A stretch of DNA of 64,000 bases from Candidatus Nitrosocosmicus oleophilus (lineage in GTDB: Archaea; Thermoproteota; Nitrososphaeria; Nitrososphaerales; Nitrososphaeraceae), in assembly GCF_000802205.1 (NCBI RefSeq), contig NZ_CP012850.1, positions 620,001-684,000 on the forward strand, written 5' to 3'. A program made the translations under genes and the position numbers. The stretch's first letter is position 1. The number at the start of each line of letters is the position of its first letter. This document shows, piece after piece, positions 2,772 through 50,007 of the stretch. Under the pieces are notes generated by a model. The model worked only from the letters and a program-made list of their open reading frames with translations, did no database searches and was not told the origin of the DNA.

Positions 2772-2809
2772 GTTTCTCTATTTACAAAAAGGAAAATAGA
2801 TAGGGCTAA

Positions 2810-19551: not shown

Positions 19552-19556
19552 TTACA

Positions 19557-24625: not shown

Positions 24626-25621
24626 ATATTGAAAGTATTAGAGTATGTTTTAGTCATTCAATAAACAGTCTGAGACAAACAAAAAAAACTATCTATTATA
24701 AATACTATAAAAAATACATAGGTGAAATGAAGATTTACGAAAAATTGATGTTACTTTTAACTATTGCCTTTATATTTACTATACCTCTTGATATTAATAC
24801 TATAATACATCAACAATCTTTTGCTCAAATTAGCCCTTCTCCTGAACGATTGCCACCTACTTCTACACCACCATTTGAAGAACTACCTCAACAACAAAAA
24901 GCCACATCGACAAACAAAACATGTATTATAACTCCTTCATTAATCGAAGTGGAAGGTACACCTCAACAGATTGAAGGTCCATATTTTGTTGATAGCATGC
25001 CCAACCGTTCTGACCTCCGAGTGGAACCATCCGATGGCTCAATTCAAGAAGGAATTCCTTTGAACATAACTATCAATGTCTATAGAGTTGATGACAGCGA
25101 TGGAAATGGAAAAGAAACTTGTGTTCCTTTTAGTGGTGCCATAGTGGATATCTGGGAAGCAAATTCTCAAGGACTATATTCTGGAGTTAGAGAAGATGGT
25201 ACTCAAGGACTGGATTACCTTCGGGGAAACCAAATTACTAATGAAAATGGAACAGTGAAATTTCAAACAATTTATCCAGGATGGTATGAAAACAGAGCTA
25301 TACATATTCACTTGAAAGTTAGAGATTTTGAAGGTCCAGAGAAAATCTTTGAATGGACTTCTCAATTGTATCTTCCTAATTCAATAAATGAACAAGTACA
25401 TTTACAACCTCCGTACAATGACCATGGACCTGTCCCCATGACAAATGAACAAGATTTTATTTATACTGGGCCTTCTACTGATGGTTTGATAAAAAATAAT
25501 ACAGGAAATCACTTAATCCTTAACATATCCAAGTCCGATGGCGGATATAGTGGTACATTTAATGTGGAATTGAACGCTACTATGGATACATAACAAACAT
25601 AGACGAAGTTTGGGACTCGAA
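24626..25621. repeat. Long duplication, copy 1 (partner at 40004-40995)
   Basis: About 995 bases almost identical to 40004-40995, covering the dioxygenase-like gene and about 100 bases of upstream DNA. The only difference I see is a 4-base indel in an A-run upstream. Identity stops on the right exactly inside the tRNA-like head GGGACTCGAA, after which the two copies continue with different repeat types (C here, B there). Confidence 0.92.
24727..25593 (+). CDS. Secreted intradiol ring-cleavage dioxygenase-like protein, copy 1
   Basis: 288 residues. A signal peptide covers residues about 5-33 (LMLLLTIAFIFTIPLDIN to SFAQ). The dioxygenase-like domain shows EGPYFVDSMPNRSDLR, VDIWEANSQGLYSGV (first Tyr ligand), IYPGWYENRAIHIHLKV (second Tyr and the His-x-His pair) and a final LYLPNSIN. 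All four iron ligands are present. Intradiol enzymes open catechol rings; extracellular members may act on humic or lignin phenolics. A longer frame from 24499 exists, but the homologous start in the second copy and the signal peptide favour ATG 24727. The product is identical to that of the copy at 40101. Confidence 0.85.
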   Translation: MKIYEKLMLLLTIAFIFTIPLDINTIIHQQSFAQISPSPERLPPTSTPPFEELPQQQKATSTNKTCIITPSLIEVEGTPQQIEGPYFVDSMPNRSDLRVEPSDGSIQEGIPLNITINVYRVDDSDGNGKETCVPFSGAIVDIWEANSQGLYSGVREDGTQGLDYLRGNQITNENGTVKFQTIYPGWYENRAIHIHLKVRDFEGPEKIFEWTSQLYLPNSINEQVHLQPPYNDHGPVPMTNEQDFIYTGPSTDGLIKNNTGNHLILNISKSDGGYSGTFNVELNATMDT

Positions 25622-25710
25622 GCCCTGTCATAAAAACAGGGAATCTAACAAATTGAGTTTATTATGATGTAGGAGATGGGTTTGTTTACATGCTAGATGG
25701 TTACAGGTTA
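25612..25710. repeat. Composite repeat: tRNA-like head, type C body, then type E
   Basis: GGGACTCGAAGCCCTGTCAT, AAAAACAGGGAATCTAACA, and about 30 bases later TTTGTTTACATGCTAGATGG. It combines the head of types A/B with the type C body, so the types appear to be modular parts of one family. It fills the 300-base gap between the dioxygenase-like and beta-propeller genes. Confidence 0.6.
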
Positions 25711-25892
25711 ATATAGTATTTACTAATGATAAAGTCAATATATCTAAGGCACCAGAAGAGGGATTTGAACTCCGTAGTTATACTCTAAGAGACAAATAAA
25801 ATGAAAAATATCTCCAATTAAAAGATTGAAGAAAATGAATTATCAATGTATCTCTATTAGCCACTGGATAGGACAATGATCCTTTATTATAT

Positions 25893-27323
25893 TTACTGAC
25901 CTTCGATTGCATAATTCAGTTTAGCGTTTTCAGACGGTGGCCCACTACACTTTAGCCAAAAGTACTCAGAATCAACTATTGATGATAAACCGCAGGTAAC
26001 AAGGTTCGTAGGCACTAAAGAATTAGTCAAACCATCTATTATTGACACAAAGTTCATCCAGTGATTGTCATCAATATTCGTATATGTGGCGTATATTTTA
26101 TTCATGTCGCTAATCAACAGTTCTTTGACAAATTTAAGAGGAATGGTCTTAATCATGTTGAAAGAGGTAGCATTAACTACTGAAATCCCGTCATCATCTA
26201 CCGCATAAAGAGTATTAGTATCTTGATTTAGTTCCATATAATAAGGCGTGTGTTGACTCAACTTGATAGTTGTTATCACTTCATTAGAAGTACCATTAAT
26301 TACCGAGATGGTTCCTTCCTGATTGAGTACATAAACTAGGTTTGTATGACCATCAGGAGATATGGACTGGATTATTCTAATAGGGCCAATTCCAACCTTC
26401 ACTGTATCTATGACTTTTTCAGCTTCGGTATCTACTATGGAGACGGTTCCATTCGGTTTGAAAGCGTATGGGCTTCCTTCGTTGGCTACATATATTCTGT
26501 GATTACTGTTGTCCACTATCATGTCAGAAGGTGTATTACCGATCATTATTTGATTCTTATCCCAATAAGCGGTATCATTAATTACAGTGATAGTTCCGTT
26601 AGTCCCGGACTCATAGTAACTATTAAGTACGTATAATGTATGCGGATATTCGTATCCAACTTCTATTGGTCTGTACCCGGTAAAGATTGTTTCACTTATT
26701 GTATTTGAAGTAATGTTTAATTCCTTAATCCCGGATGTAGTCCAGTCAGTAAAATAGAACATATTAGAGTATGGTCCATACAATTGGTTGAAATCATTAT
26801 GACCAATGTAAATTTTGTCAGTAATTGTTAGTGTTGGAAGGTTTATTACAAGAATATTTGAATTCTCACAACATAGGAGGACGTTTAGACTATCTAATTT
26901 GGTTACTGTTGGACGATAATCCGAGTCAACAGTCATGTTAATTGGAGATAATGTATTAGACAATTCATCGAGTATAGATATTGATGATTGGGACCATCCA
27001 TATGGAATAATAAACAATTCACCCTTTGAAGCTTCAGCCAATGAAACATCAGATCCTAGTCCCAATTTTAATCCAGAGAAAGGTACCGTATTTACAACGC
27101 TAGTTAGAACAGAGTCATTTTTTATATTTTGATCAGTGATGGCGAATTGTGAAATTTTCCCATCAGGATTCCATCCCTTTAAATGTCCAGTTTCGTTGTC
27201 CTGTAGTGTTACAAAACTTCTATTGATTTCTGAGGAGTTGTATGTCGTAGCTAAAGACGAATAAGAGTAATTATCAAAAGGATAAAAGTAGATAGCACTA
27301 ATAAACAGAATGATTCCCAACAC
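25893..27323 (-). CDS. Secreted YVTN/YncE-like beta-propeller protein
   Basis: 476 residues from GTG 27323, with an N-terminal signal or anchor (MLGIILFISAIYFYPF). Repeated blades of about 45 residues carry the YVTN pattern, e.g. PSDMIVDNSNHRIYVANEGS, GTVSIVDTEAEKVIDTVKVG, NTLYAVDDDGISVVNATSFN. Such seven-bladed propellers are common surface proteins of archaea and are thought to bind ligands or partners; enzymatic activity is not expected. An upstream stop codon in frame and the lack of ATG make GTG the best start. Several Asn-x-Ser/Thr sites fit extracellular glycosylation. Confidence 0.82.
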   Translation of the reverse strand: MLGIILFISAIYFYPFDNYSYSSLATTYNSSEINRSFVTLQDNETGHLKGWNPDGKISQFAITDQNIKNDSVLTSVVNTVPFSGLKLGLGSDVSLAEASKGELFIIPYGWSQSSISILDELSNTLSPINMTVDSDYRPTVTKLDSLNVLLCCENSNILVINLPTLTITDKIYIGHNDFNQLYGPYSNMFYFTDWTTSGIKELNITSNTISETIFTGYRPIEVGYEYPHTLYVLNSYYESGTNGTITVINDTAYWDKNQIMIGNTPSDMIVDNSNHRIYVANEGSPYAFKPNGTVSIVDTEAEKVIDTVKVGIGPIRIIQSISPDGHTNLVYVLNQEGTISVINGTSNEVITTIKLSQHTPYYMELNQDTNTLYAVDDDGISVVNATSFNMIKTIPLKFVKELLISDMNKIYATYTNIDDNHWMNFVSIIDGLTNSLVPTNLVTCGLSSIVDSEYFWLKCSGPPSENAKLNYAIEGQ

Positions 27324-28031
27324 AGGAATTAAAGGGTTTATATTATTTGTCGTACCATGGCTTTGAACCCCTATCTAATAAACCTTGTGTTAATATTCTA
27401 AGTATTATAAAATATTGTTTGAAAGTTTGAATTTTTCCTGATCCTTGTGATGTTATTAATAAAAAAATTTGTTTTGTATTAAGAAACATTGGGCATATTT
27501 AATGGAGTTAGATATGTCATGCTTGAATTCATTTTACTGATTCCTCGTTCCCAATACTCTCGTCTGCTATTGCATCAAGTAATGAATTAATGGATAATGT
27601 TTATCTAGATGATTTCAGTTTCGAGATAGGTAGTGACTGTATAGCCGAGGGACTTTAAAATGGGACGGATTGCACCATTTCAGAAGTAATATGACCATGA
27701 AGTGAAGAAAGAGCTTTCGAGGCGTTTCCATCTTTATAATGAATGTCTATTCCTAATTGATAGAGTATTTGGTACTATTTTTCTAGTCTTCATTGAAGAT
27801 CATCATAGGAATTGATAAGTAATCCAAATAGACAAAGGAGGTTTGGGACTCGAATCTACGTCTTTCGGACGTGGGTTCCAACAAAAAAGGGCCTCCTACT
27901 CTTTAAACCACTTGACTAATCAAGGTCCGGGCCCGGTGGGCTTCAGGACGATATCAGTCCTATAATGTGGGTTCTATTGATTATTGACTGTATCGACTAT
28001 CCATCCATTTGAATTCAAAAGAAGTTTGTAG
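27324..28031. other. Intergenic region with a long tRNA-like repeat
   Basis: About 700 bases without a gene. The only structured element is the type B repeat at 27841-27934. Confidence 0.5.
27841..27934. repeat. tRNA-like repeat, type B long form (copy 2)
   Basis: GGGACTCGAATCTACGTCTT, then TCGGACGTGGGTTCCAAC, a run of A, and AAGGTCCGGGCCC at the far end. Read on the minus strand it runs like a tRNA, with a GGGCCCGGACCTTG start, a D-loop-like GTCAAGTGGTTTAAAG, and a T-loop-like GATTCGAGTCCC. The T stem and acceptor do not pair, so it is a pseudo-tRNA. Nearly the same sequence is at 44048-44142. Confidence 0.6.
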
Positions 28032-28451
28032 TTATTCTAAAGTCCTCTCATTGCTATTTGGCAAATCCATAACACTGCCTTTAATTGGTTTATCTGGTTG
28101 TTCGAGAACTCCATCATCTTGTATTGGTGCCGCAGGACCAGATGGTGAGGATGGTGGAGGATTTGGTGGTGTATCAAGCATTTGAAGCTCCTTTTGGGTG
28201 CAATTGACATAACCTTCGCCTTCTACCCACGCACACTTTTGACAAAATGATTCTCCCAAGATACTGCCTTTAATTTTTTCTCTCCAACAACAAGTTTGAT
28301 ATTTATCATTAGGTCCAGACCATGAGCAATTACCACTATTAGAATATCCTGGGGCTGGTCTTTCAGCAAATACAAAAGTTGTACTAGAAACTAACCCTGC
28401 CATCAAAAGAGTCATAATAGCTGCTATCACAACATTACTTTTGATCATCAT
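28032..28451 (-). CDS. Secreted Cys-rich small protein
   Basis: 139 residues with a signal peptide (residues 1-29, ending FVFAE). The mature part has six cysteines, including the pair in YQTCCWREK, FCQKCAWVEG and NCTQKE, then a Pro-rich stretch (PPNPPPSSPSGPAAPI) and an acidic tail. It is probably an exported disulfide-bonded or metal-binding protein. No family is recognised. Confidence 0.62.
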   Translation of the reverse strand: MMIKSNVVIAAIMTLLMAGLVSSTTFVFAERPAPGYSNSGNCSWSGPNDKYQTCCWREKIKGSILGESFCQKCAWVEGEGYVNCTQKELQMLDTPPNPPPSSPSGPAAPIQDDGVLEQPDKPIKGSVMDLPNSNERTLE

Positions 28452-28799
28452 TCCTTATTCAACTTCTTTTTGTTTCCACTATCAATATTATTTGCATAAA
28501 AAATAGATATTTCGTACTTTTGGATATGATTTATAAAATACATGAACTTCATGTTCACAAAAAGTATTTTAGAATAACTAACAAATTCTAAGAATTTTAG
28601 ACTAACAATAACATTAATCAAACTTAGGACGAATAGTTCAGTTAAAGACAATAGGCCTGGTGGGTTTAGTAATAGATATATTACGAATCCAAATTGCAAG
28701 TAATAACTATCATTGGTATAGATGTTACGATTTTGCAGATGAAAGCAGGATTAAGATCATCTTTCTAAATATCTTACATATTTCATTTCAATCGAAATA
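28452..28799. other. Intergenic, divergent promoter region
   Basis: About 350 A+T-rich bases between two divergently transcribed secreted-protein genes. An 83-codon frame on the minus strand is Phe/Ile/Leu-rich and looks like a chance frame. No repeat seen. Confidence 0.4.
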
Positions 28800-29696
28800 A
28801 TGTTCAAAAATAACAAGATTATTAAACATAGTCATCTTAATCCTTTATTGAAGATTATGATACCCAAATTAATGGTCATGAGTTTATTGTTGGTGTCTAC
28901 TGCGATTATCTTTTTCTCTCTTTGTGACGACTACGCATTAGGGCAATTTCAAGAAACTTCAAATGGTTCTGCGCCTACAGGTATGAATTTTTATTTTAAT
29001 CCCATTTATAATGCATCAATTAATTATCCATCTAACTGGTCTGTGAATGAAACCGATCCGGACGCTACGGACAGGGTTGACCTTATTGCTACGTTTGTAT
29101 CGCCCTATGAAACTTATAATGATAATTATACTGAATATGTAGAGGTGTATAGGGACGATGGAATTTTTTATGAAGCCGATTTAAATGAATATTTGCAAGA
29201 AGGGATTGATACTTATCAAAATATTTCCAATAACTTTACTATAATCGATTCTTCAACTTCAGGTACTCTTTCTAATCTCCCTGCTTATACTCTTAGTTAT
29301 TCTCAAGTCATTGAGGGCCAAGATGGTCAAGAACCTATTAAACTTAAAAACTATGAGACAGGCACTTTGGTAAACAATACTGGATACTATATTACTTTTG
29401 TTGGAGAAGACAAACAATTTGATAAATACTTACCTATTGCAAAGCAAATGATCGACTCTTTCGAGTTGCTGTTGCCTTCATCTGTGAATTTAACCTATCC
29501 ATCAGATGAATTAGAGGAATTAGATACTGGAACCAACGAGACCATTCCAACAAACAACGCGACTAATTCTAATCTTACTACAATAAATGATTCAAATGAA
29601 GATAAAATTATTAAGAACTCTACTGGCACGTCCAAGAGTGAAACTTTCTCTAAATTAGTTCAAGCCCTACGTGACATTCTTCAGCGTAACAACTAG
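28800..29696 (+). CDS. Secreted PsbP-like domain protein
   Basis: 298 residues with an N-terminal hydrophobic export segment (residues about 20-45, IPKLMVMSLLLVSTAIIFFS). The central domain resembles the PsbP/Mog1 fold of archaeal exported proteins: NFYFNPIYNASINYPSNWSV, then TYNDNYTEYVEVYRDD, and FDKYLPIAKQMIDSFELL near residue 215. An Asn/Thr/Ser-rich tail with glycosylation-type sites follows, ending in a short basic helix. The function is unknown; relatives are abundant surface proteins in ammonia-oxidising archaea. Confidence 0.65.
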   Translation: MFKNNKIIKHSHLNPLLKIMIPKLMVMSLLLVSTAIIFFSLCDDYALGQFQETSNGSAPTGMNFYFNPIYNASINYPSNWSVNETDPDATDRVDLIATFVSPYETYNDNYTEYVEVYRDDGIFYEADLNEYLQEGIDTYQNISNNFTIIDSSTSGTLSNLPAYTLSYSQVIEGQDGQEPIKLKNYETGTLVNNTGYYITFVGEDKQFDKYLPIAKQMIDSFELLLPSSVNLTYPSDELEELDTGTNETIPTNNATNSNLTTINDSNEDKIIKNSTGTSKSETFSKLVQALRDILQRNN

Positions 29697-30169
29697 TATA
29701 GTATGAATGGCATTTGAACATTTGTTGTATTCAAACATTCATGAATGGTGAAAGAAATAAAAGGATAGAACTCATAAACCACTACTCACGAGAATTTAGT
29801 CAAAATATGTAACCGATAAAAAGATTAATGTATCATAAAAGACTTAACCATTGACTTCTTCAGGTTAGAGGAACTATTTTTAACGTTTGATATACTTTCT
29901 TATGGTTTTGCTCACTTTAATGTATCCTTTGTAATAATTAGTCTAGATACCTTTTATAAATAGAATCAAAACAAGGATTTCTTATCACAATCCACCTGAG
30001 TAAGGACACGGTGGAAATATGTGGGCTAAAAACTATAAGGATTGGAAAGGTTCAACATTTTCCTTTAATCTTCTATTACTCTTATAAAAAAATATACAAT
30101 AAAAAAAATGTTCTATATCTTCTAGTATAGTTATACATAATCAATAACTTTGAAATTACTACTAGTAAA
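29697..30169. other. Intergenic stretch, nothing recognised
   Basis: About 470 A+T-rich bases. Only a 22-codon frame near 30019 and poly-A/T runs are seen. No repeat of the tRNA-like family was found here. Confidence 0.4.
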
Positions 30170-31909
30170 TTGGTGTACCAAAGTCACAATATACAAGCAT
30201 TTCCCGTATTTAGCTTTTTTGTGTTTTTGTTAATTTCATCCTCTTTTTGCTCAACAATTCAACTCTCTTATGGTGCCTACGCCAAAGCTCCTCGATCACC
30301 ATATGGACCTACAGTGAATGACGATACTCTCACAGTTGAAAAAGTTACAGATAATTTAGATATTCCTACGAGCATGGCATTTCTAGGTCCTAATGACATC
30401 CTGGTTACAGAAAAAACTACAGGTAAGGTAATGAGGATCTTGGATGGACTGGTGATGCCGCAGCCAGTTTTGGATGTCCCCGTAGCATCACTAATTGAGC
30501 GAGGATTACTCGGTATAGCTGTTTCCAAGAATATAGCAGAAGGAAAAACATATGTTTTCCTCTATTATACCGAATCTGGAGATGGAATAGATGAAAGTGA
30601 CGCAAATAATCTTGTCGATCCATTGGGAAATAGGCTTTATCGTTACGAATTTGTTGATAGCAGATTAATAAATCCAGTTTTGTTATTGGACTTGACCGCA
30701 ATTCCTCCAAACACTAGAGGTGAACATAATGGAGGCAAAATCCGAATTGGTCCAGATGATAATGTATACTTGATAGTTGGAGAAGTGGGTGGTCACAGAA
30801 CTCAGGCACAAAATGTGTTCGATGGTCCAGCTCCAAATGGACTTGGAGGCGTACTTAGAATTAGTCAAGATGGTGGAATAGTAGATCCAGATAATCCTAT
30901 TTTTGGTGATGGATTACCGCTAAATGTTTACTATGCAATGGGCATTCGAAATAGTTTTGGTATGGATTTTGATCCTCTAACAGGCAATCTTTGGGATACT
31001 GAAAACGGACCTGACACCGGTGATGAAATAAATTTAGTATTTCCGGGATTTAACAGCGGCTGGGTTCAAATTCAAGGTTATGAAGATGATGATTTACTAG
31101 AGAATGAAGCATCTGAAGCTAATTTGACAGAGTTTGGAAATAGTGAATATGCAGATCCAAAATTTGTTTGGGATACGACGATAGGCATAACTGCACTAAA
31201 GTTCCTGAATTCAGACAAACTGGGTAAAGAATATCAAAACAATATGTTCGTCGGAGACATTAATAATGGTCTCCTATACCGATTTACCCTTAATGAAGAT
31301 CGAGATAATATTTTCATCAATGATACTTTTGTTGGTGATATCGATTCATTAGATGATAATGAAATAAATGACCCTAAAGAGAACCAGCCAATAATCTTTG
31401 GACAGGGTTTTGGAGGAATAACTGATATTCAGGTCGGTCCAGATGGCTACCTATACGTTTCAAGTTATTCAGGCTCTTTATATAAAATACTACCAGTATC
31501 TGAAAGCACTACTCCAAAGAATCAACCTAACTTGACCCCACAAAACACTACCTTGACAAATCAAACCGTTTCTGCAGTTATTTTAGGAATAGACGGAGAT
31601 GATTCATATTCACCAGAACCAATTGAAATAAGGGCAGGTCAGACTGTTACTTGGCATAACGGAGATACCATATCACATACTGTTACTTCAGGACAAGATG
31701 GAGATCTAGATGAAGGAATCCTTTTTGATTCTGATGCTATAATACCTAACCAAGACTATAGCCTGACATTTGATACTCCTGGAGAATTCGATTACTATTG
31801 TATTTATCATCCCACTATGGTTGGTGAAGTAACAGTGAGTGGACCAGATGCATCTACATCTACATCAGAAGATTCTACAGATGAAGAATCAGATGAAGAA
31901 GACGGCTAG
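30170..31909 (+). CDS. Secreted PQQ-type sugar dehydrogenase fused to a cupredoxin domain
   Basis: 579 residues with an export signal (FPVFSFFVFLLISSSFCSTI). Residues about 50-445 are a GSDH/PQQ six-bladed propeller: LDIPTSMAFLGPNDILVTEK, ERGLLGIAVSK, GEHNGGKIRIGPDDNVYLIVG, and GIRNSFGMDFDPLTGNLWDTEN with GPDTGDEIN. After a Thr/Asn linker, residues about 470-560 are a plastocyanin-like domain with all four blue-copper ligands: ISHTVTS (His), YYCIYHPTM (Cys, His, Met). The fusion suggests that electrons from an oxidised sugar or aldehyde pass to copper in the same chain. Whether PQQ is made by this organism is not shown here. Start TTG 30170 or GTG 30173. Confidence 0.85.
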   Translation: MVYQSHNIQAFPVFSFFVFLLISSSFCSTIQLSYGAYAKAPRSPYGPTVNDDTLTVEKVTDNLDIPTSMAFLGPNDILVTEKTTGKVMRILDGLVMPQPVLDVPVASLIERGLLGIAVSKNIAEGKTYVFLYYTESGDGIDESDANNLVDPLGNRLYRYEFVDSRLINPVLLLDLTAIPPNTRGEHNGGKIRIGPDDNVYLIVGEVGGHRTQAQNVFDGPAPNGLGGVLRISQDGGIVDPDNPIFGDGLPLNVYYAMGIRNSFGMDFDPLTGNLWDTENGPDTGDEINLVFPGFNSGWVQIQGYEDDDLLENEASEANLTEFGNSEYADPKFVWDTTIGITALKFLNSDKLGKEYQNNMFVGDINNGLLYRFTLNEDRDNIFINDTFVGDIDSLDDNEINDPKENQPIIFGQGFGGITDIQVGPDGYLYVSSYSGSLYKILPVSESTTPKNQPNLTPQNTTLTNQTVSAVILGIDGDDSYSPEPIEIRAGQTVTWHNGDTISHTVTSGQDGDLDEGILFDSDAIIPNQDYSLTFDTPGEFDYYCIYHPTMVGEVTVSGPDASTSTSEDSTDEESDEEDG

Positions 31910-32021
31910 ATGAGTATTGCATGTTTGCCTTGACAAATTAAAGGGCAAATATCTAGTGGTAAATAGAACGTGTATCCGCATACAGCTGCAGTCCATCTCT
32001 TTTCAAATTAGTAAATAAGAA

Positions 32022-32073
32022 TAGTAACAGTTCTTATCCGTGGGGAAAGTTCCTAGTGGTAGTAGGGTTCTAA
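32022..32073. repeat. Dispersed repeat, type D (copy 1)
   Basis: AGTTCTTATCCGTGGGGAAA then GTTCCTAGTGGTAGTAGGGT. The CCTAGTGGTAG part resembles a tRNA D-loop (box A). Copies at 36582, 48412 and 48970; the 48970 copy also shares the preceding TTCTTATCC. Confidence 0.6.
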
Positions 32074-32170
32074 TACAACTGTATGTCAACAGGTTCTTTT
32101 CAAGACAATTATTTTTTAAAATTAGTGTGATAATTGAAAGAAATAAATTCTCAAAGTTCCAATTGCTTTC

Positions 32171-32599
32171 GTGAAGGATAAACCATTTGATTTTCATGGT
32201 TCAAAGTTTACAATCAAGGTCCTTAGCTCCGAAACAGACTATAAATATACAGTTCTAGATATATTTCACCCACCCAATTTAGGTCCGGCGTTACATACAC
32301 ATCCAAAAGGTTCAGAAACTTTTTGCATAATTGATGGAGATTATCGCTTCATTTTAGATGGAAAATCGATCTTAGGTAGGCCCGGAGACACTATCTTTGT
32401 TCCGAAGGAAACTCCTCATCGATTTGAAGTAGGTCCAAAAGGTGGACATGCGATTGTAATTAGTCCCCCGGAACTTGAGTTTTATTTTTTCAAAGTCGGT
32501 GAATTGCTAGTTAAAGGACAGGTTTCTTATGAAGAAGAGTCAAGTATAGGAAAAAAGTATGGTCAGGTTTTTCTTGACAATACAAAACATTGGAGCTAA
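32171..32599 (+). CDS. Cupin-domain protein
   Basis: 142 residues from GTG 32171. Cupin motif 1 is PALHTHPKGSETFCIIDG (two His and Glu as metal ligands) and motif 2 is GRPGDTIFVPKETPHRFEVG (His). It resembles the short RmlC-like single-domain cupins with a C-terminal helix (EFYFFKVGELLVKGQ). It likely binds a metal ion; the substrate is unknown. It is similar in length and layout to the cupin at 2286 but clearly diverged. Confidence 0.82.
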   Translation: MKDKPFDFHGSKFTIKVLSSETDYKYTVLDIFHPPNLGPALHTHPKGSETFCIIDGDYRFILDGKSILGRPGDTIFVPKETPHRFEVGPKGGHAIVISPPELEFYFFKVGELLVKGQVSYEEESSIGKKYGQVFLDNTKHWS

Positions 32600-32774
32600 T
32601 GTGATTATTTGTTATACATTAGAGACTATGAAGTCTAAATAAAATTTATAAACTATGATGATGAGGATATGTAATTAAAAATCACATTAGTTTGCAAAAA
32701 TATCGGGAAAAGGTTTTTTTAGAAATAACTAGAAATGACAATAAGGTTTTCTTAATTATCGTATTATTACCGCA

Positions 32775-33140
32775 TTGTATTTTATGGGTAACTATACATC
32801 TTTTGTTGCAGTTAGTGGTCATGCAATTCCTATTGCCTTTAAACCTCGACCTGATCAAATTGTAAATTCAACTACATCGATACCTGACAAGATATCAATT
32901 ACTTTTAATGAACGGCCTGTATTGGATGCTAGTACTATTCGAGTCACGGATTCTAATGGGACTAGGATCGACAATAATGATCTCAAATTAGGAGATTCTG
33001 AAAAAGAACTTACAGTATCTTTGAATGCATCCAAAGTAGTATCAGGTGATTATTTTGTAGAATGGTTCGTCTTTTCTAAGGATGATGGTTTGATTACTAA
33101 AGGCTCATATTCTTTTTCATATGCTTCTGACAGGAGCTAA
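32775..33140 (+). CDS. CopC-like copper-binding domain protein
   Basis: 121 residues. The domain begins with SGHAIPIAFKPRPDQIVN, where CopC proteins have their mature N-terminal His, and continues DKISITFNERPVLDASTIRV, then SGDYFVEWFVFSKDDGLITKGSYSFSY, all typical of the CopC beta sandwich. Such proteins bind copper outside the membrane. Only about 13-16 residues precede the His, too short for a normal signal peptide, and no farther start is open (a stop lies 11 codons upstream of TTG 32775). So it may be N-terminally truncated. CopD is not adjacent. Confidence 0.75.
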   Translation: MYFMGNYTSFVAVSGHAIPIAFKPRPDQIVNSTTSIPDKISITFNERPVLDASTIRVTDSNGTRIDNNDLKLGDSEKELTVSLNASKVVSGDYFVEWFVFSKDDGLITKGSYSFSYASDRS

Positions 33141-33665
33141 AACTTTCTTATCACATTTTTGCTTAAAATTTCAATATTGTATCTAAATTCCTTATTATTA
33201 TCTTTTATGGAACCAAAAATGACCGATGCTGGAAACATTGTATTGATTACTTCAATACTCATGTTATATATCATAAATAATACATATATTTATCACTATT
33301 GTCAATAAATAACAAAATTACGATTTCTGCAATGATAAACTGTATATTAAATGAGTCGTAATTGATTCTTTACTATTACACATCATTGTTGATCAGGAAA
33401 AATGCGGAATTCTCTTATTGATATTTATTCAAATTTTGCTAAGAAACTAGAAAATAATTTTAAATCTTGAATCTCTTTTGAATAATATGATCATGTTACC
33501 ATAAATTAAAATTAGTTTACAAACATCTAATGATGCTTGTTTAAAAAGACTCTGGTTATGTGACTTAGTTTTTAATATTAGTAAAGTGTTGATTCACGAA
33601 ATAATTCGGTAAGTTGTAGATATATTATAGACATGTTAATATACCATGATCAATAATGGGGATTA
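33141..33665. other. Intergenic stretch, little seen
   Basis: About 525 very A+T-rich bases. One 33-codon frame at 33207-33308 (MEPKMTDAGNIVLITSILML) would encode a single membrane helix, but nothing else supports it. Confidence 0.3.
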
Positions 33666-34709
33666 ATGCCAATATCAAATTATAGTATGTTAAAAGCTAA
33701 AGTTGTAGACTCCCGTTTTGCTTCAGGTACCAATCCTCATTATCAAATTAAGGTAGTAGATGATGAGAAGGAATACAGAATTGCTGTTAATGTTAGATCA
33801 CAAGACGGATCAGACCTCCAGTATGTCCTTAATTCTCAATGGAATCATCCAATACAAGACGATTTAGAACAATTAGAACTTGGATTACACGGTATTCTAA
33901 GTAAGCCTGGAGGACTAGCTTTGGATTATATTCGTGGCAACGTAGTTGATCCACGACTCTTTATCACAATTCCTATGAATCTTCCTGGTCCAGATAACGA
34001 CTTGAATGAAAAACTCAACCATTACATACAACGTGCAATGGCCGACGAAAGCGCCATTTTATACTCTTTTGGTGAACCCTGGGGTCCAGAAAATAAGAGA
34101 GACAAGATTTTTGGATTTCTTCCAGGTGCTGGAATTCACAATATTCATAAGAATCAAGGTAACAATTCCAACTGGGCTAATGATGACGGAGTTTGGCAAG
34201 ATGGCGGTCTTCTTTTTCATTTCCCAGAACACAATCAATGGATAGCAATATTTCTAAGGTTTCAGAATCAATCCTGGCATACTGATGATGTTACTGGTCA
34301 TAAAATTAAGGTCCCTACAAGTGGACCTCCTTCTGATTCGATCGCTGTTGAACCATTAAATAGAGACTCACTTCCCACTTCAGATCGTCCTGATGGGCTC
34401 ATTAGGATTGTTGCTGCATTGGTTAACGATACAAATAGCCCAGAGAAAGAGACTGTTACATTATTAAATACTTCAAACGGCGAAGTATCATTAGATGGCT
34501 GGATGATAGCAGACAAACATAAAAATAAGATGCCTTTAAATGGAAAACTGACTAGGGGTAGCACCATTACTTTTCCCATTTCGCCGCCTGTAGTGTTTTC
34601 AAATAAGGGAGGAATTATAACGTTACTTGATGACCAAGGTCTCAAAGTTGATGGGGTATCATATACTAAGTCTCAGGCACGTCATCCAGGTTGGACCATA
34701 AAGTTCTGA
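33666..34709 (+). CDS. DUF2278 (YukJ-like) protein with C-terminal lamin-tail domain
   Basis: 347 residues. The N-terminal 225 residues match DUF2278: MPISNYSMLKAKVVDSRFAS, HYQIKVVDDEKEYRIAVNV, and the conserved GIHNIHKNQGN ... DGVWQDGGLLFHFP. Residues about 245-347 form an LTD immunoglobulin-like domain (RIVAALVNDTNSPEKETVTL, then SLDGWMIADKHKNKMPL). LTD domains often accompany extracellular nucleases, and a nuclease-fold gene follows 24 bases later, so the two probably form an operon. There is no signal peptide. The function of DUF2278 is unknown. Confidence 0.82.
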   Translation: MPISNYSMLKAKVVDSRFASGTNPHYQIKVVDDEKEYRIAVNVRSQDGSDLQYVLNSQWNHPIQDDLEQLELGLHGILSKPGGLALDYIRGNVVDPRLFITIPMNLPGPDNDLNEKLNHYIQRAMADESAILYSFGEPWGPENKRDKIFGFLPGAGIHNIHKNQGNNSNWANDDGVWQDGGLLFHFPEHNQWIAIFLRFQNQSWHTDDVTGHKIKVPTSGPPSDSIAVEPLNRDSLPTSDRPDGLIRIVAALVNDTNSPEKETVTLLNTSNGEVSLDGWMIADKHKNKMPLNGKLTRGSTITFPISPPVVFSNKGGIITLLDDQGLKVDGVSYTKSQARHPGWTIKF

Positions 34710-34733
34710 ATAATTGAAAAATAAAATGAGGAA

Positions 34734-35918
34734 ATGCAAATGAACATAAGATTGGGTACTTTTAATCTGGAAAACTTGTTTTTAAGATATAGAATTCTAG
34801 ACGGTGATAGAACTGGAACTTTTAATCCAAAACCTATCCCTTTTACAGATATATCTAAATTCATATCTACTTATACAGAATATCTAGAAAAATTTGGTGG
34901 ACCAGAAAAACTCGAGAGTGATCCTAAGGCAAGAGAAAAATTGTACAAAGAACTGGCCTCAACCAGCAAAGGAAACAAAATTTTAGCTAAATTTCTTTTA
35001 GAAGGTGTATCGATAAACAATCTTCAAATCGATCAGTTGTACGCTGTTAATGAAACTCAAAGAAAAAGTACTGCAAAGGCCATGCGAGGAGAAGATAATG
35101 AAATGAATTTTCCAGATATTATGGCATTGCAGGAAGTCGAAAATATGCAAGCTCTAGGAGATTTTAATTCTACTAATTTCGATAAACACTATAAATATAG
35201 ATACCTTATTGACGGTAATGACGATAGGCAAATTGATGTAGGGTTTTATAGTAATTTTCCTGCAACCCGAATTCGAACTCATCAATTTGCTAAGGACATA
35301 GATGGAACACATCTCTTTTCGAGAGACTGTCTTGAAATAGACTTTGCATTAACTGATGATGAAGAGAAGATCGATGATAGTACACCTATTCTAACAGTTT
35401 TTAATAACCACTTAAAATCTAAATTTATTGATTTTCGTGTGAAAGAAAGTGATAGAGAAAAAGCCAAACAAAATGCAGAGTCAAAAAGGAAAAGACAGGC
35501 TGATGAAATCGTACGTATTCTTAAGGAAAGATTCGAAGGTAATGATTTTGAAAAAAGAGATTTCATAGTATGTGGAGATTTTAATGATTCACCTTCATCT
35601 CCGTCTTTAACCAAATTATTAAACTCGGGAATAGAAAATGTAGTAAATAGAATTGGTAACGGAGACATAAAAAAAGAATGGACATACTATTATTCACAAG
35701 AAAATACCTTAGAACAGATGGATTACATACTCTTGTCACCGTCTTTATCCAAAAAGAACAAGAATAACAAACCAGAAATTGAAAGAAGAGGAATGGCCAA
35801 TTACAGGAAACTAAAGACTGATCATAATTTTGACCTAAAGCGATTTGAAGGGGTAACAAAAAGAGGTACAGAAGCTTCAGATCATTGTCCGGTGTTCATG
35901 GAGTTAAATATAGAATAA
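34734..35918 (+). CDS. Endonuclease/exonuclease/phosphatase family protein
   Basis: 394 residues with EEP-fold signatures: LGTFNLENLFLRYR (Asn), PDIMALQEVENMQAL (metal Glu), FIVCGDFNDSPSSPSL (Asp and Asn), and the final EASDHCPVFMEL (Asp-His pair). It has the layout of DNase I/endonuclease-like members with an added helical insert at about 40-100. It could act on DNA, RNA or a phosphoester. No signal peptide is seen. ATG 34734 or the second ATG 34740; a GAGG at 34728-34731 fits the second slightly better. It is coupled to the DUF2278-LTD gene. Confidence 0.85.
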   Translation: MQMNIRLGTFNLENLFLRYRILDGDRTGTFNPKPIPFTDISKFISTYTEYLEKFGGPEKLESDPKAREKLYKELASTSKGNKILAKFLLEGVSINNLQIDQLYAVNETQRKSTAKAMRGEDNEMNFPDIMALQEVENMQALGDFNSTNFDKHYKYRYLIDGNDDRQIDVGFYSNFPATRIRTHQFAKDIDGTHLFSRDCLEIDFALTDDEEKIDDSTPILTVFNNHLKSKFIDFRVKESDREKAKQNAESKRKRQADEIVRILKERFEGNDFEKRDFIVCGDFNDSPSSPSLTKLLNSGIENVVNRIGNGDIKKEWTYYYSQENTLEQMDYILLSPSLSKKNKNNKPEIERRGMANYRKLKTDHNFDLKRFEGVTKRGTEASDHCPVFMELNIE

Positions 35919-35993
35919 CAAATGAATCAAACTTACTTATGAATATCTGTCTAGTTTAATTACTAGCCTCATTTCTGTTTGCATACATCCGTC

Positions 35994-36018
35994 GGAATAC
36001 GATTCAAGGTTGAATATG
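35994..36018. repeat. Short repeat shared with 44142
   Basis: GAATACGATTCAAGGTTGAA then TATGA. The same block (GGATACGATTCAAGGTTGAA) directly follows the type B repeat at 44048-44142, where it belongs to a longer composite. Confidence 0.5.
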
Positions 36019-36131
36019 ATCCGACAATTAATAAAATATTGAAATCCATTACAATCGAAGGTTCCTTACTACCAACGAGCCACAATCTTATACCCATTAT
36101 ATAATATTATGAACATTACAATTTGAAATAA

Positions 36132-36389
36132 ATGAAGAAAATTTTTGTTTTTACAAGTTTTGTGCTGTCATTTGTGTTGACAGCCTCGTTAACAAGCATT
36201 TCATTGGGCCAGATGGCATTAGCCCAAGACCTGTCCAGTCTTAAAGATCATGCAACAAAGTTACTCACGGGAAATGACAATAGTCAGAGAACAGATAATA
36301 TGTCAGAATCAGCATCCGATAATTCTACCTCATCTGACTCCTCATTAACACAGAGAGCAACCGATGCATTAGGTGCATTCTTAAAATAG
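36132..36389 (+). CDS. Small secreted protein
   Basis: 85 residues. A typical signal peptide (MKKIFVFTSFVLSFVLTASL to MALAQ) precedes a mature part of about 52 residues that is Ser/Asp/Asn-rich with two short amphipathic segments (DLSSLKDHATKLLTG and SLTQRATDALGAFLK). It is probably exported and perhaps surface-associated. The family is unknown. Confidence 0.62.
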   Translation: MKKIFVFTSFVLSFVLTASLTSISLGQMALAQDLSSLKDHATKLLTGNDNSQRTDNMSESASDNSTSSDSSLTQRATDALGAFLK

Positions 36390-37031
36390 AATACTTGGAT
36401 CAAAATCTATAAAGGATTTTATTTATCTTTAACTATTATTTTGATGCCTCTCAAATTCTAGAAGTATAATAGTTTTTTATTGATTGTCATATTCTTTCTG
36501 AGCAGTAGATGATAACAAGCCTATACAAAATACGATCTGAATTGATAATCATTACCAGATAAAAGAACAGTGAGTTTGGACGCGTGGGGATTAGGGTCCC
36601 AGTGGTAGTAGGATTCTAATGTAATCTGCATGTGGCATTTTATTTCCGGTAATCGATAAAGAAATAATGCTTCTTTAAGTTATAATATTATCTTCAATGG
36701 GGAGACTGTTACAATCCTTGTTTTTTTAACTTAAAAATTTTATATTCTTTAACTAGATTTCATATATATACAACTAATTTATAGTTAATATTATGATTCC
36801 CAAAAAGGTCTACTCTACGAATTTGTTAAAACATAAAAAAATGTAAGAAGGGGTACAAGAAATCAGGCTTAAATTTCATTCGGTCTTTTTGTTAATTTTG
36901 ATCAATAAATGGAAACAAACATCAACAACATGACGGTAACTATGAAAAGCAAATCCAGAACAGAAATAGAAATACTCTTGATAGTAATAATGAAAGTTTT
37001 AAGATAATTCAAATTTCAGTATATCAGTAAA
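36390..37031. other. Intergenic region with a type D repeat
   Basis: About 640 A+T-rich bases. The only structured part is the type D repeat at 36582-36622 (GCGTGGGGATTAGGGTCCCA then GTGGTAGTAGGATTCTAAT). No gene is seen. Confidence 0.45.
36582..36622. repeat. Dispersed repeat, type D (copy 2)
   Basis: GTGGGGATTAGGGTCCCAGT then GGTAGTAGGATTCTAAT; a close variant of 32022, 48412 and 48970. Confidence 0.6.
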
Positions 37032-37145
37032 TCAATAAGAATAAATAATTACAGGCTTTTCCTCAACAACGTTGACCTGTGCATTAATCTTAAGTTCAAC
37101 TAAATTTACCTGTATGCGAGTATTAGTTGCACCTAACGCTGTCAA
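37032..37145 (-). CDS. Possible small protein (37 aa)
   Basis: A TTG-started frame (MTALGATNTRIQVNLVELKI then NAQVNVVEEKPVIIYSY) with alternating beta-strand character and coding-like composition. It has no ATG and ends in TGA 37032-37034. It may be a true short gene or the end of a decayed longer one. Confidence 0.33.
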   Translation of the reverse strand: MTALGATNTRIQVNLVELKINAQVNVVEEKPVIIYSY

Positions 37146-37313
37146 ATGAACAAGTTAAAACACTACAAAGGTATGGACAGGAATTCAATCAATGGCTTGA
37201 GACACTGCACTTCATATGAGAGTTAGACATTTCTGCGTAGAGCTCTATAATGTATATATGAATACCACCCATGGGTATGATGTTGCATTTTCAAAAAAAG
37301 AAGGGGAGCTGGA

Positions 37314-37889
37314 ATGAGGTTTCACATAGAGAAAAAAGGTTTACGTGTTTTAGGGATAGCCGAAAGCTTCACAAAAACTAGTACTTGTTCCACACTTACA
37401 GGAATAGTAATGCGCCGTGATCTGGTAATTGACGGCATGGTTTTTGGAAATGTTACGATAGAAGGAAATGATTCGACACAAAATATCTTGTCTATGTATA
37501 GGTCATTGAGGAGAAACGACATCAATTGCATAATGCTTGATGGTCTTGTAATAAGCATGTACAATATTATAGACGGTGAAGAACTTGAAAAGAGCACTAG
37601 TGTTCCAGTTATAGCAATAACTTTCAAAGACTCTGAAGGACTAGAAGGTGCAATAAATCATCATTTTTCCAGTGACTCTGAGATGAAGATGAAATTAGAA
37701 CAATATCGTAAACTAGGTAAGCGAGACGCAATTCTGTTAAGGACTGGTAAGATCTTGTTCGTACGATACTGGGGAATCAGTTCTGAAGAAGCATCCAAGA
37801 TCGTTAATTTCTTTACGCTCCAAGGTTCAATTCCTGAGCCGATTAGAATAGCAAAACTTGCCGCACGTGCATGTATGCGAAACAAATAA
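37314..37889 (+). CDS. DUF99 family protein
   Basis: 191 residues matching the archaeal DUF99 family, which is related in fold to endonuclease V and RNase H. Conserved stretches are LRVLGIAESF, RRDLVIDGMVFGNVTIEGND, NCIMLDGLVISMYNIIDGEE and LLRTGKILFVRYWGISSEEA. It begins at ATG 37314 after a GGGGAG at 37304-37309. The molecular role is not established; a nucleic-acid repair or processing role is inferred from the fold. The gene stands alone. Confidence 0.82.
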   Translation: MRFHIEKKGLRVLGIAESFTKTSTCSTLTGIVMRRDLVIDGMVFGNVTIEGNDSTQNILSMYRSLRRNDINCIMLDGLVISMYNIIDGEELEKSTSVPVIAITFKDSEGLEGAINHHFSSDSEMKMKLEQYRKLGKRDAILLRTGKILFVRYWGISSEEASKIVNFFTLQGSIPEPIRIAKLAARACMRNK

Positions 37890-38141
37890 TCTGAACTCGG
37901 CTGATGTATGGCTTAGAGGAGGTAACCACATACTCTTCTAATTAGGTTGCTCGTTAGAATTATTTTCAAATGGAATATGAATACGCAAAGCGATTTTTAA
38001 ATAATCTAAACTGATATGGGTAGGGTGTAACCTTAACTGTTCCTTACTACCACACAACATAAACCAAACGAAAGAAATCAAGAGAATCAAAGGAATCAGA
38101 TCTTTTTATTTGTAAATTTAATTATATATTATCTGTTTGTC

Positions 38142-38723
38142 ATGACGTTGTTATTAAGCAGAAAGGAAAAGGAAGAACTAGTTATCAAACTCGCTCGGGA
38201 AGGAAAGACAACAAGAGAGATCGCAAAAATTGTACACATATCTTTGAAAGATATAGGTGAAATAATAAAAAAATTTACTGGCGAAAGTAATTCTGAAAGT
38301 AACGAAGCGGAGAAAGAAAAGGAGAGATTAAGCAAATTATCTATTTATGCTCAAGCTTTTCAACTTTTTAGAGAAAAGAAATCATTAACTGAAGTCGTAA
38401 TTACACTTGATTTAGAAGCAGACACTGTCTTGTATTACTATAAGGACTATCTTAGACTAAATCATCTGCATAAACTGGTTAATTTATATCACAGTTTAGT
38501 AAAAGATCTTCCCTTGTTTCTTCATTTGTTTAATAGAATAAAAGAAGAAGGATTAAGCAGGGAAGAAATCGCATATATGATAGAGATCCAAAGCAATATA
38601 GCAGATAAGCAAGAAACTGTTGTCTGGCTCAATAAACATATTTCAGAACTTGGGAAAGAAAAGCAGGAACTTGAGAAAGATATAATTAGGCTTAGAGAAA
38701 TCAAGATGGATTTGGAACAATAG
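38142..38723 (+). CDS. Helix-turn-helix protein with C-terminal coiled coil
   Basis: 193 residues. Residues 5-45 form an HTH (RKEKEELVIKLAREGKTTRE, IAKIVHISLKDIGEIIKKF). A second, HTH-like segment lies at about 75-105 (LFREKKSLTEVVITLDLEAD). The C-terminus is a coiled coil (HISELGKEKQELEKDIIRLR). This layout is a multi-copy family in Nitrososphaera-type archaea, thought to be DNA-binding regulators. It begins at ATG 38142. The target is unknown and no neighbour is co-transcribed. Confidence 0.7.
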   Translation: MTLLLSRKEKEELVIKLAREGKTTREIAKIVHISLKDIGEIIKKFTGESNSESNEAEKEKERLSKLSIYAQAFQLFREKKSLTEVVITLDLEADTVLYYYKDYLRLNHLHKLVNLYHSLVKDLPLFLHLFNRIKEEGLSREEIAYMIEIQSNIADKQETVVWLNKHISELGKEKQELEKDIIRLREIKMDLEQ

Positions 38724-38943
38724 GCACCTTTTAGGGAAGAAGTAAATCAAAATTCAAGTATTTCTAAATCCAATGCCTGATCAATAATGCTTGCTTGACT
38801 AATTTGAGAAAATGGTGATATAGATTGAATACCCCCATTTTATCTATGATAGATTAAAACAACAGTAAAAGATTCTCAAGCAAATGACTTATCGTTATGT
38901 TATAAGCAACAACTTTATTAGAATAACCATGTCCTCCTGTATA

Positions 38944-39138
38944 CTAATCACCAGGTTTGATCTCCCAACTCCAACCAGATGTTTTCCCAGTATCGAGATT
39001 AACAAAGCCGTCCAAAATTATTTCTAGATTAGGTGTAGATACACGGTTATTGGAAGCCATATCCCTGCGTAGAGGAACGAATGGCAAAATAACCTTACAT
39101 GACATCTCCTTATTTTTAGGCTCTTTATTTCCCCCCAT
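38944..39138 (-). CDS. Small hypothetical protein, possibly element remnant
   Basis: 64 residues (MGGNKEPKNKEMSCKVILPF ... GKTSGWSWEIKPGD). The sequence looks coding, with beta-strand-like VSTPNLEIILDGFVNLDTG. Its ATG lies inside the last codons of the upstream frame-broken ORF, like overlapping genes of an operon. The family is unknown. It sits beside the copied tRNA-Ser end at 39383-39453, so it may be left from an integrated element. Confidence 0.42.
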   Translation of the reverse strand: MGGNKEPKNKEMSCKVILPFVPLRRDMASNNRVSTPNLEIILDGFVNLDTGKTSGWSWEIKPGD

Positions 39139-39372
39139 CTTTCAGAGCTTTATCCTTTAATTTGTCAGCAGGGACGAGTTGAGTTGATTCTCTTATGACC
39201 TGTTCCAGTTCCTCTATCTTGATATTCTTTAGGTCAATTAATTCTTCTTTAATATTTTATTAAAATAAGGTCTTGAAAGAGTCTTGGTAATCGAATCAAT
39301 TTTTCTTTCCAGATCGGAGAGTGATTCTCTTGGATTCTCGTATAATTGATCGGTGTTACCGGAATGATTCAA
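39125..39372 (-). pseudogene. Frame-broken small gene (two ORFs in different frames)
   Basis: One frame runs from TTG 39372 to TAA 39238-39240 (LNHSGNTDQLYENPRESLSD, LERKIDSITKTLSRPYFN). The other continues at about 39255 to TAA 39125-39127 (EELIDLKNIKIEELEQVIRE, STQLVPADKLKDKALKDGGK). Both are Lys/Glu-rich helical and look like halves of one coiled-coil protein of about 85 residues broken by a one-base shift in an A/T run. A sequencing error or programmed shift is also possible. Confidence 0.42.
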
Positions 39373-39382
39373 CTAATAAAAA

Positions 39383-39541
39383 TTTGCTCTTTTGATATAT
39401 AACAATATAGGAGGAACCCACATTTGAGGCGCCGGGAGTGGGACTCGAATCCATACCGTATAATCGTGGAGTCATCAAATAAAACTTTTTGATCCATAGA
39501 AGGGTTTGGGATTTGTTTACATGTCAGGTAGTCATGGGTTT
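39383..39541. repeat. Copied tRNA-Ser 3' end and flank, continuing as type A and type E repeat
   Basis: 39383-39453 matches 49961-50031 at 66 of 71 positions by my count: the last 24 bases of the tRNA-Ser plus its 3' flank (TTTGCTCTTTT ... AACCCAC). Then the type A body (ATACCGTATAATCGTGGAGT) and the type E motif (GGGATTTGTTTACATGTCAG at 39508) follow. 39440-39541 is almost identical to 47443-47544. Confidence 0.8.
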
Positions 39542-39665
39542 TTACCATACGACTAGTATTGTATATCCTCTGATACATCGTGTAGTTTAAGTTCATAATT
39601 TATGGAAGGTAATATTGTCACTCATCCACAAAAATCCTTATATCATTTTTACTATAAATCATGTT

Positions 39666-39902
39666 ATGAATTACCACACAGACACCGAATCTGGTTCTTC
39701 TGGGTCATCGGTGCTTAATGATGAGGTAGAAAATAAAAAAGCTATAAAGGAGATACAAGATAAACTAAATGAACTAGCACCTTCATTGCATAATTCGGTT
39801 AACCTAACTACCATTAAGGACCTTGAATTACGTGTATCCGATGTAGAGGGGAAAGTAGAAAAAATTCTTAGTATTCTAGAATCAAAAAAGGATATCAGAT
39901 AG
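39666..39902 (+). CDS. Small coiled-coil protein carried next to repeats
   Basis: 78 residues. A polar Ser/Gly N-terminus (MNYHTDTESGSSGSS) is followed by a Glu/Lys-rich coiled coil (NDEVENKKAIKEIQDKLNEL, then DLELRVSDVEGKVEKILSIL). There is no signal peptide. A second copy at 12999 has an in-frame stop. In both places the gene follows a type E motif by about 125 bases, and the identity covers that upstream DNA too. It may thus be cargo of a small mobile or duplicated unit. An upstream TTG (39615) is an alternative start, but ATG 39666 matches the other copy. Confidence 0.6.
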   Translation: MNYHTDTESGSSGSSVLNDEVENKKAIKEIQDKLNELAPSLHNSVNLTTIKDLELRVSDVEGKVEKILSILESKKDIR

Positions 39903-40003
39903 TCATGAATTACATGTGATTGATAAGTAAGTATATACCTAGAATAATGACTGAATTAAGCTGATTTGAAGCCATACTCTAATTATAAATTGATTGTTTA
40001 ACA

Positions 40004-40995
40004 ATATTGAAAGTATTAGAGTATGTTTTAGTCATTCAATAAACAGTCTGAGACAAAAAAAACTATCTATTATAAATACTATAAAAAATACATAGGTGAA
40101 ATGAAGATTTACGAAAAATTGATGTTACTTTTAACTATTGCCTTTATATTTACTATACCTCTTGATATTAATACTATAATACATCAACAATCTTTTGCTC
40201 AAATTAGCCCTTCTCCTGAACGATTGCCACCTACTTCTACACCACCATTTGAAGAACTACCTCAACAACAAAAAGCCACATCGACAAACAAAACATGTAT
40301 TATAACTCCTTCATTAATCGAAGTGGAAGGTACACCTCAACAGATTGAAGGTCCATATTTTGTTGATAGCATGCCCAACCGTTCTGACCTCCGAGTGGAA
40401 CCATCCGATGGCTCAATTCAAGAAGGAATTCCTTTGAACATAACTATCAATGTCTATAGAGTTGATGACAGCGATGGAAATGGAAAAGAAACTTGTGTTC
40501 CTTTTAGTGGTGCCATAGTGGATATCTGGGAAGCAAATTCTCAAGGACTATATTCTGGAGTTAGAGAAGATGGTACTCAAGGACTGGATTACCTTCGGGG
40601 AAACCAAATTACTAATGAAAATGGAACAGTGAAATTTCAAACAATTTATCCAGGATGGTATGAAAACAGAGCTATACATATTCACTTGAAAGTTAGAGAT
40701 TTTGAAGGTCCAGAGAAAATCTTTGAATGGACTTCTCAATTGTATCTTCCTAATTCAATAAATGAACAAGTACATTTACAACCTCCGTACAATGACCATG
40801 GACCTGTCCCCATGACAAATGAACAAGATTTTATTTATACTGGGCCTTCTACTGATGGTTTGATAAAAAATAATACAGGAAATCACTTAATCCTTAACAT
40901 ATCCAAGTCCGATGGCGGATATAGTGGTACATTTAATGTGGAATTGAACGCTACTATGGATACATAACAAACATAGACGAAGTTTGGGACTCGAA
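40004..40995. repeat. Long duplication, copy 2 (partner at 24626-25621)
   Basis: Almost identical to 24626-25621. The left break lies in ATATTGAAAG and the right break in the tRNA-like head GGGACTCGAA. Confidence 0.92.
40101..40967 (+). CDS. Secreted intradiol ring-cleavage dioxygenase-like protein, copy 2
   Basis: 288 residues, identical in sequence to the product of the gene at 24727. Signal peptide, Tyr ligands (GLYSGV and YPGWYENR) and His-x-His pair (IHIHLKV) are all kept, so both copies should be functional. The lack of any silent difference that I can see shows a very recent duplication or gene conversion. The 100 bases of shared upstream DNA suggest the promoter was copied too, so both may be expressed. 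The family acts on catechol-like rings; the natural substrate is unknown. Confidence 0.85.
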   Translation: MKIYEKLMLLLTIAFIFTIPLDINTIIHQQSFAQISPSPERLPPTSTPPFEELPQQQKATSTNKTCIITPSLIEVEGTPQQIEGPYFVDSMPNRSDLRVEPSDGSIQEGIPLNITINVYRVDDSDGNGKETCVPFSGAIVDIWEANSQGLYSGVREDGTQGLDYLRGNQITNENGTVKFQTIYPGWYENRAIHIHLKVRDFEGPEKIFEWTSQLYLPNSINEQVHLQPPYNDHGPVPMTNEQDFIYTGPSTDGLIKNNTGNHLILNISKSDGGYSGTFNVELNATMDT

Positions 40996-41025
40996 TCTAC
41001 GTCTTTCAGACGTGGGTTCCAACAA
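40982..41025. repeat. tRNA-like repeat, type B (copy 3)
   Basis: TTTGGGACTCGAATCTACGT then CTTTCAGACGTGGGTTCCAAC. Its head is shared with the end of the dioxygenase duplication. Confidence 0.65.
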
Positions 41026-44047: not shown

Positions 44048-44163
44048 AGTGGGACTCGAATCTACGTCTTTCGGAGGTGGGTTCCAACAAAAAAGCCTCC
44101 TACTCTTTCAATCACGACTAATCAAGGTCCGAGCCCGTGGGGATACGATTCAAGGTTGAATAT
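44048..44163. repeat. tRNA-like repeat, type B long form (copy 4) plus short tail repeat
   Basis: GTGGGACTCGAATCTACGTC, TTTCGGAGGTGGGTTCCAAC, an A-run, GCCTCCTACTCTTTCAATCA, AAGGTCCGAGCCC, then GGGGATACGATTCAAGGTTG. Same order as 27841-27934, with the tail also found alone at 35994. Confidence 0.65.
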
Positions 44164-49843: not shown

Positions 49844-50007
49844 AACATAATTTAGAAAACATTGTTTATATAATTATAAGAACAAATATGCAGAGTATCA
49901 TGGTGACCATAAAGCATATCTTTCTGGTGACACATCCAAAAAACATGAAAACAATCAAATTTTGCTCTTTTAATATATAACGATATAGGCGGAACCCACG
50001 TTTGAGG

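Follow-up and report, generated by a model that had tools for sequence, protein, structure and literature searches.

An island of tandem integration behind a tRNA-Ser gene of Candidatus Nitrosocosmicus oleophilus, and its duplicated dioxygenase cassette

Described systems and the present locus

A flexible genomic island of the additive type, recognizable by repeats of the tRNA-Lys 3' end, has been described in Methylophilaceae (PMC10872708). Mobile elements integrated in tandem are known from Thaumarchaeota (PMC6563490), and integrons have been reported from archaeal MAGs (PMC9668308). The stretch analyzed here, called the window, is 64,000 nucleotides of the genome of Candidatus Nitrosocosmicus oleophilus (contig NZ_CP012850.1, positions 620,001 to 684,000). 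It carries a tandem-integration island at a tRNA gene, which behaves like a gene-cassette array.

As in the Methylophilaceae island (PMC10872708), variable insertions, mostly of small unknown genes, are stacked at one tRNA, with 3'-end repeats between them. The present island differs in being archaeal, in having the T-loop as core rather than the last 20 bases, in featuring three families of right arms which bear dyads and a second class of left arms which does not restore the tRNA, and in that the integrase family has been identified. The thaumarchaeal elements (PMC6563490) share with it a tyrosine integrase, a location at tRNA 3' ends (some of these genes having introns), short direct repeats and re-use of one site. 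In contrast to them, at least 14 att sites lie here in about 65 kb, cassettes lack an integrase, and arms are reassorted. In the main text of that study the terms Nitrosocosmicus and NitOle are not found, and MY3 is mentioned solely for its IS elements. A literature search, in which few subscription journals were covered, found no paper on such an island in Nitrosocosmicus.

Tycheposons, as far as they are summarized in PMC10872708, are tRNA-bordered cargo elements with a tyrosine recombinase. The likeness considered here is one of layout, and the single-gene cassettes found in the island, which lack a recombinase, differ from the elements of that summary. Both the tRNA border and the tyrosine recombinase it mentions are present in an element of G005, a genome of the same genus, described below.

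Archaeal integrons (PMC9668308) resemble the island in having small co-oriented cassettes, with a recombination site containing inverted repeats at the end of each; here, in contrast, the core is a T-loop, the anchor a tRNA, and no attC consensus is present. That the locus is a true archaeal integron, made of IntI and attC sites, is scarcely credible. Short co-oriented cassettes, a palindromic end site, the lack of an integrase alongside most cassettes, and the integrons on record from archaeal MAGs are in its favor, but none of the 73 sites has the signature RYYYAAC...GTTRRRY (found in 15 of 4000 random stretches), the array starts from a tRNA and not from an intI gene with its attI, and it is the 3' end of the tRNA that the linked integrase adjoins. 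The integron reading was dropped on the site consensus. New with respect to described systems are the two left-arm classes, the three right-arm families bearing dyads, the reassortment of arms, and single-gene cassettes common to islands of different tRNA-Ser genes.

Anchor tRNA, att sites and integrase family

An intact tRNA-Ser(CGA) gene, interrupted by two introns, lies at one end of the island, and co-oriented repeats of its 3' part mark the other joints. The gene was identified by ARAGORN after the two inferred introns had been removed; in the raw window ARAGORN made 0 tRNA calls and Rfam gave 0 matches, because the tRNA carries these introns. Orthologues align in G003, G005 and G010. The core sequence GGGACTCGAA is the complement of the T-loop and of the 3' side of the T-stem. 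The outer flank, from 50248 onwards to the ribosomal protein/RNA polymerase operon, is syntenic in G003, G005, G006, G010 and G012; the inner flank, downstream of the tRNA 3' end, varies among genomes. The tRNA and the two integrase remnants of the window are as follows.

50008..50146, minus strand: intact two-intron tRNA-Ser(CGA), anchor of the array, core at 50017
39244..39423, minus strand: integrase N-terminal remnant abutting the att site at 39439, 75% amino acid identity to residues 1-60 of the G005 integrase
about 49940..50001, minus strand: second integrase N-terminal remnant, beside the tRNA, start codon changed to ACG, translation TWVPPISLYIKRAKF

The tRNA-Ser(CGA) of G003 (G003:C2 about 87674) has a differing 3' acceptor strand, CCTCCGGC, which agrees with left arms of the GCGCCGGAGG type in other elements; it looks as though an element had taken the place of the original 3' end.

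Sequences matching TGGGACTCGAA with at most one mismatch occur 10 times in the window, all on the plus strand (0.47 expected), and 7 of the 9 exact copies in the genome fall within it. A covariance model of the core and the next 27 bases detects 17 sites in the genome, most at 605-668 kb and on the plus strand. About 14 att sites in the same orientation extend leftwards behind the tRNA-Ser(CGA) 3' end. All array sites of this genome (16/16) are on one strand, and each of the other arrays examined has a single orientation.

To the right of the core the sites feature a dyad of 9-9-9 bases. Complementary residues are found in 81% of the cells, against at most 44% when the dyad is slid, a control which is the yardstick here rather than raw pairing, since the dyad was partly used in selecting and aligning the sites. 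Compensatory changes are present. The spacers of the dyads sort the right arms into three families, A (TCTTTCRGA), B (CCGTATAAT) and C (mostly NNATAAAAA), and B and C are followed, at about 66-94 bp, by a further dyad, called D. Two main types of left arm occur: tRNA 3' ends (GCGCCGGGAG and variants, including the GCGCGGGGAG of tRNA-Ser(GCT)) and class-ii ends (CCAGACGAAGTTTGG). tRNA 3'-end left arms are found in the window at 6063 and 39439. Sites are listed below; element ends have been assigned from sequence comparison.

2807..2847, plus strand: att site, right arm A, decayed
4194..4234, plus strand: att site, decayed, A-like
6063..6103, plus strand: att site, tRNA 3'-end left arm and right arm B, left edge of a 6.7-kb segment missing in G013
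8508..8548, plus strand: att site, right arm C, core decayed
10537..10577, plus strand: att site, class-ii left arm and right arm B
12769..12809, plus strand: att site, right arm C, right edge of the segment missing in G013
25611..25651, plus strand: att site closing copy 1 of the duplication, class-ii left arm and right arm C
27844..27884, plus strand: att site, right arm A, opening a decayed element which runs to 39439
39439..39479, plus strand: att site, tRNA 3'-end left arm and right arm B, left end of the copy-2 cassette
39515..39541, plus strand: second (D) dyad of the right arm, 9-9-9
40985..41025, plus strand: att site closing copy 2, class-ii left arm and right arm A
44050..44090, plus strand: att site, right arm A
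47443..47483, plus strand: att site, class-ii left arm and right arm B

Several other genes of the window deserve mention. A 299-aa protein of the island (22587-23486) matches AID/APOBEC-like deaminases (Pfam PF08210, 27.9 bits, cut-off 25) and has no PADLOC match; such a deaminase is unusual for an archaeon. Large ORFs that fall in no clear Pfam family are clustered at 15218-21131, downstream of a ParB homologue. The 987-aa ORF at 15218-18181 contains perfect 78-bp tandem repeats made of EASNPYNPESYTP units at 16275-16771. A nucleotide-cyclase domain fused to a response-regulator domain is encoded inside one cassette (41235-42398). Perfect 72-bp tandem repeats at 55538-55839 encode the PQPQPNNESST tail of a 378-aa ORF (54816-55952), which, judging from its neighbours, looks like an exosome component.

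A tyrosine integrase is linked to the sites, as remnants in the window and as an intact gene at the orthologous tRNA of G005. The latter encodes 491 aa and starts directly at the tRNA 3' end (G005:C1:1526142-1527614). It belongs to a complete element of 14.8 kb, delimited by a type-A site and the tRNA, which also carries PrimPol/D5 helicase, IetAS, SIR2 and Fic genes. Relatives of this integrase were found in 15 of the 15 genus genomes searched. By Pfam class it belongs to the general Phage_integrase family, and in PDB it has no sequence match. In the window the two remnants match each other at the nucleotide level (39375-39453 and 49953-50031), and both adjoin a left arm derived from the tRNA. 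A box conserved in left arms, GAACCCAC, is the complement of the integrase start (ATGTGGGTTCC, Met-Trp-Val-Pro). The remnants are missed by the PF00589 profile alone, and recovered when a protein of the family is used as query. No intact integrase was found in the 204 kb examined around the array. An intact member of the family resides elsewhere in the genome, beside tRNA-Ser(GCT) (G000:C1:2445278-2446648), and could act in trans on the sites of the array. Both this gene and that of G005 begin at the tRNA 3' end and read in the direction of the tRNA. Expression of an integrated integrase gene may depend on read-through from the tRNA promoter, and in the circular form the dyads would lie upstream of the gene.

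The sequence data strongly support the view that the repeats are att sites of a tyrosine-integrase family inserting into the T-loop of tRNA-Ser genes. The original prediction regarded them as tRNA-like repeats acting as recombination or insertion points. The second part agrees with their tRNA-Ser 3'-end origin, with the adjoining integrase remnants and with the reassorted arms; the first has to be amended, as the repeats are not free-standing units, but att sites with separable left and right arms. They could alternatively be decayed tRNA genes or structured RNAs, fragile by chance and used by no integrase. The core is indeed a T-loop complement, and right arms can form hairpins, but the lack of any Rfam match or tRNA call in the raw window, the integrase starts found in left arms, and the occurrence of right arms as parts of integrase-bearing elements make this explanation very improbable.

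Evidence of recombination at the core

Left and right arms of the att sites occur in multiple combinations. tRNA 3'-end left arms are joined to right arms A in 2 instances, B in 10 and C in 3, and to the tRNA 5' half in 7. Class-ii left arms are joined to A in 4, B in 6, C in 3, and never to the tRNA 5' half. Within and between arrays, blocks of at least 90 bp shared by two sequences end at the core in both partners in 45 instances, many of which are not independent as they derive from the repeated right arms of about 100 bp; in 300 random shifts the mean was 0.05 and the maximum 2.

Occupied and unoccupied sites differing exactly at the core were also found. The 6.7 kb between 6063 and 12769 are present in this genome and absent, core to core, from the related species G013, where the DNA left of core 6063 runs straight on into the DNA right of core 12769, the joint lying within the core. 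Both the coincident block ends and this core-bounded presence or absence speak for the repeats as recombination points, as was first proposed.

Some shared blocks end off-core, as 44470-45981, shared with G010, and 30007-31888, shared with G013. Homologous recombination between att repeats could be an alternative source of breaks at the repeats. The second block contains a glucose/sorbosone dehydrogenase gene, which is 97.9% identical to its G013 counterpart, against about 90-92% in the flanking array, which suggests a recent transfer of the gene.

Very probably, the locus is an additive island, resulting from repeated site-specific integration at the tRNA-Ser(CGA) 3' end, to which cassettes moved in trans have been added. 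Integrases of the genus-wide family would exchange strands inside the T-loop sequence, and at each event the left arm of one site would be joined to a right arm (family A, B or C) of another. The left arm supplied would consist either of the tRNA 3' end and the integrase gene start, or of a class-ii end. Some inserts would be whole elements which have since lost the integrase, others short cassettes of one to few genes, devoid of integrase and moved in trans. According to this scheme, the two copies of the dioxygenase cassette would feature the same left arm joined to different right arms. A bolder proposal, which we hold to be rather unlikely, is that these features define a cassette-capture system distinct from integrons, in which cassettes with no integrase and with exchangeable half-sites are moved in trans by tRNA-Ser integrases, and class-ii ends permit insertion solely within the array, so that no insertion ever breaks the tRNA.

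The duplicated dioxygenase cassette

The dioxygenase gene is present in two copies in the window, as listed with a neighbouring arm.

24626..25621, plus strand: copy 1, made of promoter region, dioxygenase gene, class-ii left arm and core
40004..40995, plus strand: copy 2 of the duplicated segment
24608..24623, plus strand: orphan class-ii left arm with no core, 18 bp from the left break of copy 1 (suggestive)

Self-BLAST of the window aligns the copies in direct orientation over 996 columns, with 99.6% identity. The sole difference is a gap of 4 bases in an A-rich run (ACAAACAAAAAAAAC and ACAAAAAAAAC) upstream of the gene, and there are no substitutions. The predicted near-perfect duplication of 1 kb, in the same direction and with one 4-base indel, is thus borne out. 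The duplicated unit includes the gene and about 100 bases preceding it, as stated at the outset, and the product is a protein of the intradiol dioxygenase type (PF00775, 1.6e-12), the nearest named dioxygenase homologue being that of Candidatus Nitrosocosmicus sp. Dino_bin19. No other close copies of the segment are found in the 3.43-Mb genome, which is a single contig. It can hardly be believed that the second copy results from misassembly. The near-identity of the copies, which were judged from the assembly alone, would allow it, but the genome is not fragmented, all four flanks differ in sequence, the copies differ by the 4 bases mentioned, and every junction has the form of an ordinary att site of this family.

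The right break of both copies falls inside GGGACTCGAA, beyond which copy 1 reads GCCCTGTCATAAAAACAGGGAATC and copy 2 TCTACGTCTTTCAGACGTGGGTTC; the break had been correctly placed within a tRNA-like repeat followed by different continuations. That the duplication ends at repeats holds for this side only. No core was found at the left break (24626/40004), but a cassette-end sequence, AACAGACGATGT, is located at 24608, 18 bp from the left break of copy 1, one of 3 such sequences on the plus strand of the window. The proposal that duplications break at the repeats was not refuted by the other duplications of the window: each of its 7 non-tandem duplications that reach 60 bp is in contact with an att site. 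One of them is the region 39440-39540, which begins at the core and is repeated at att 47443 with 98% identity. Paralogues of ORF-95 precede both copies of the dioxygenase segment (12840-13222 and 39508-39889, 91.6% identity).

The copy-2 cassette spans 39439 to 40985. At its end, at 25611, copy 1 shares the class-ii arm of copy 2 but has another right arm. In a second species (G010) the dioxygenase gene, the product of which is 78% identical, resides in a stretch of 1.2 kb which runs core to core in the array of tRNA-Ser(GCT). The gene is therefore a cassette, found behind a different tRNA-Ser gene. In G012 the site upstream of the gene is decayed, and the class-ii end is of the same kind.

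The most economical account has the gene copied in cassette form, with later loss of the core at one joint, presumably the left end of copy 1. Site-specific recombination by the integrase itself likely produced the 1-kb duplication. It is possible that integrases built the array, and that the duplication arose instead when older related cassettes underwent homologous recombination or gene conversion, the right end at the core being merely where similarity stops; we regard this as a serious alternative, with chances somewhat below even. A left break away from any core, the ORF-95 paralogues, which indicate that older related cassettes existed, and the confinement of 100% identity to the dioxygenase segment, as conversion gives, are in agreement with it. 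Against it are the class-ii end of a cassette near the left break of copy 1, at a distance of 18 bp, and the position of the right break in the same 10 bp as the other exchanges of the array.

The locus illustrates a route by which a genus of soil ammonia oxidizers gains and copies small metabolic genes, through swaps at a 10-bp core behind serine tRNA genes. The island offers a concrete and testable att/integrase pair, and an archaeal counterpart to gene-cassette arrays which does not involve the integron machinery. As the related intact element carries anti-phage genes (IetAS, SIR2), defence systems could spread by the same route.
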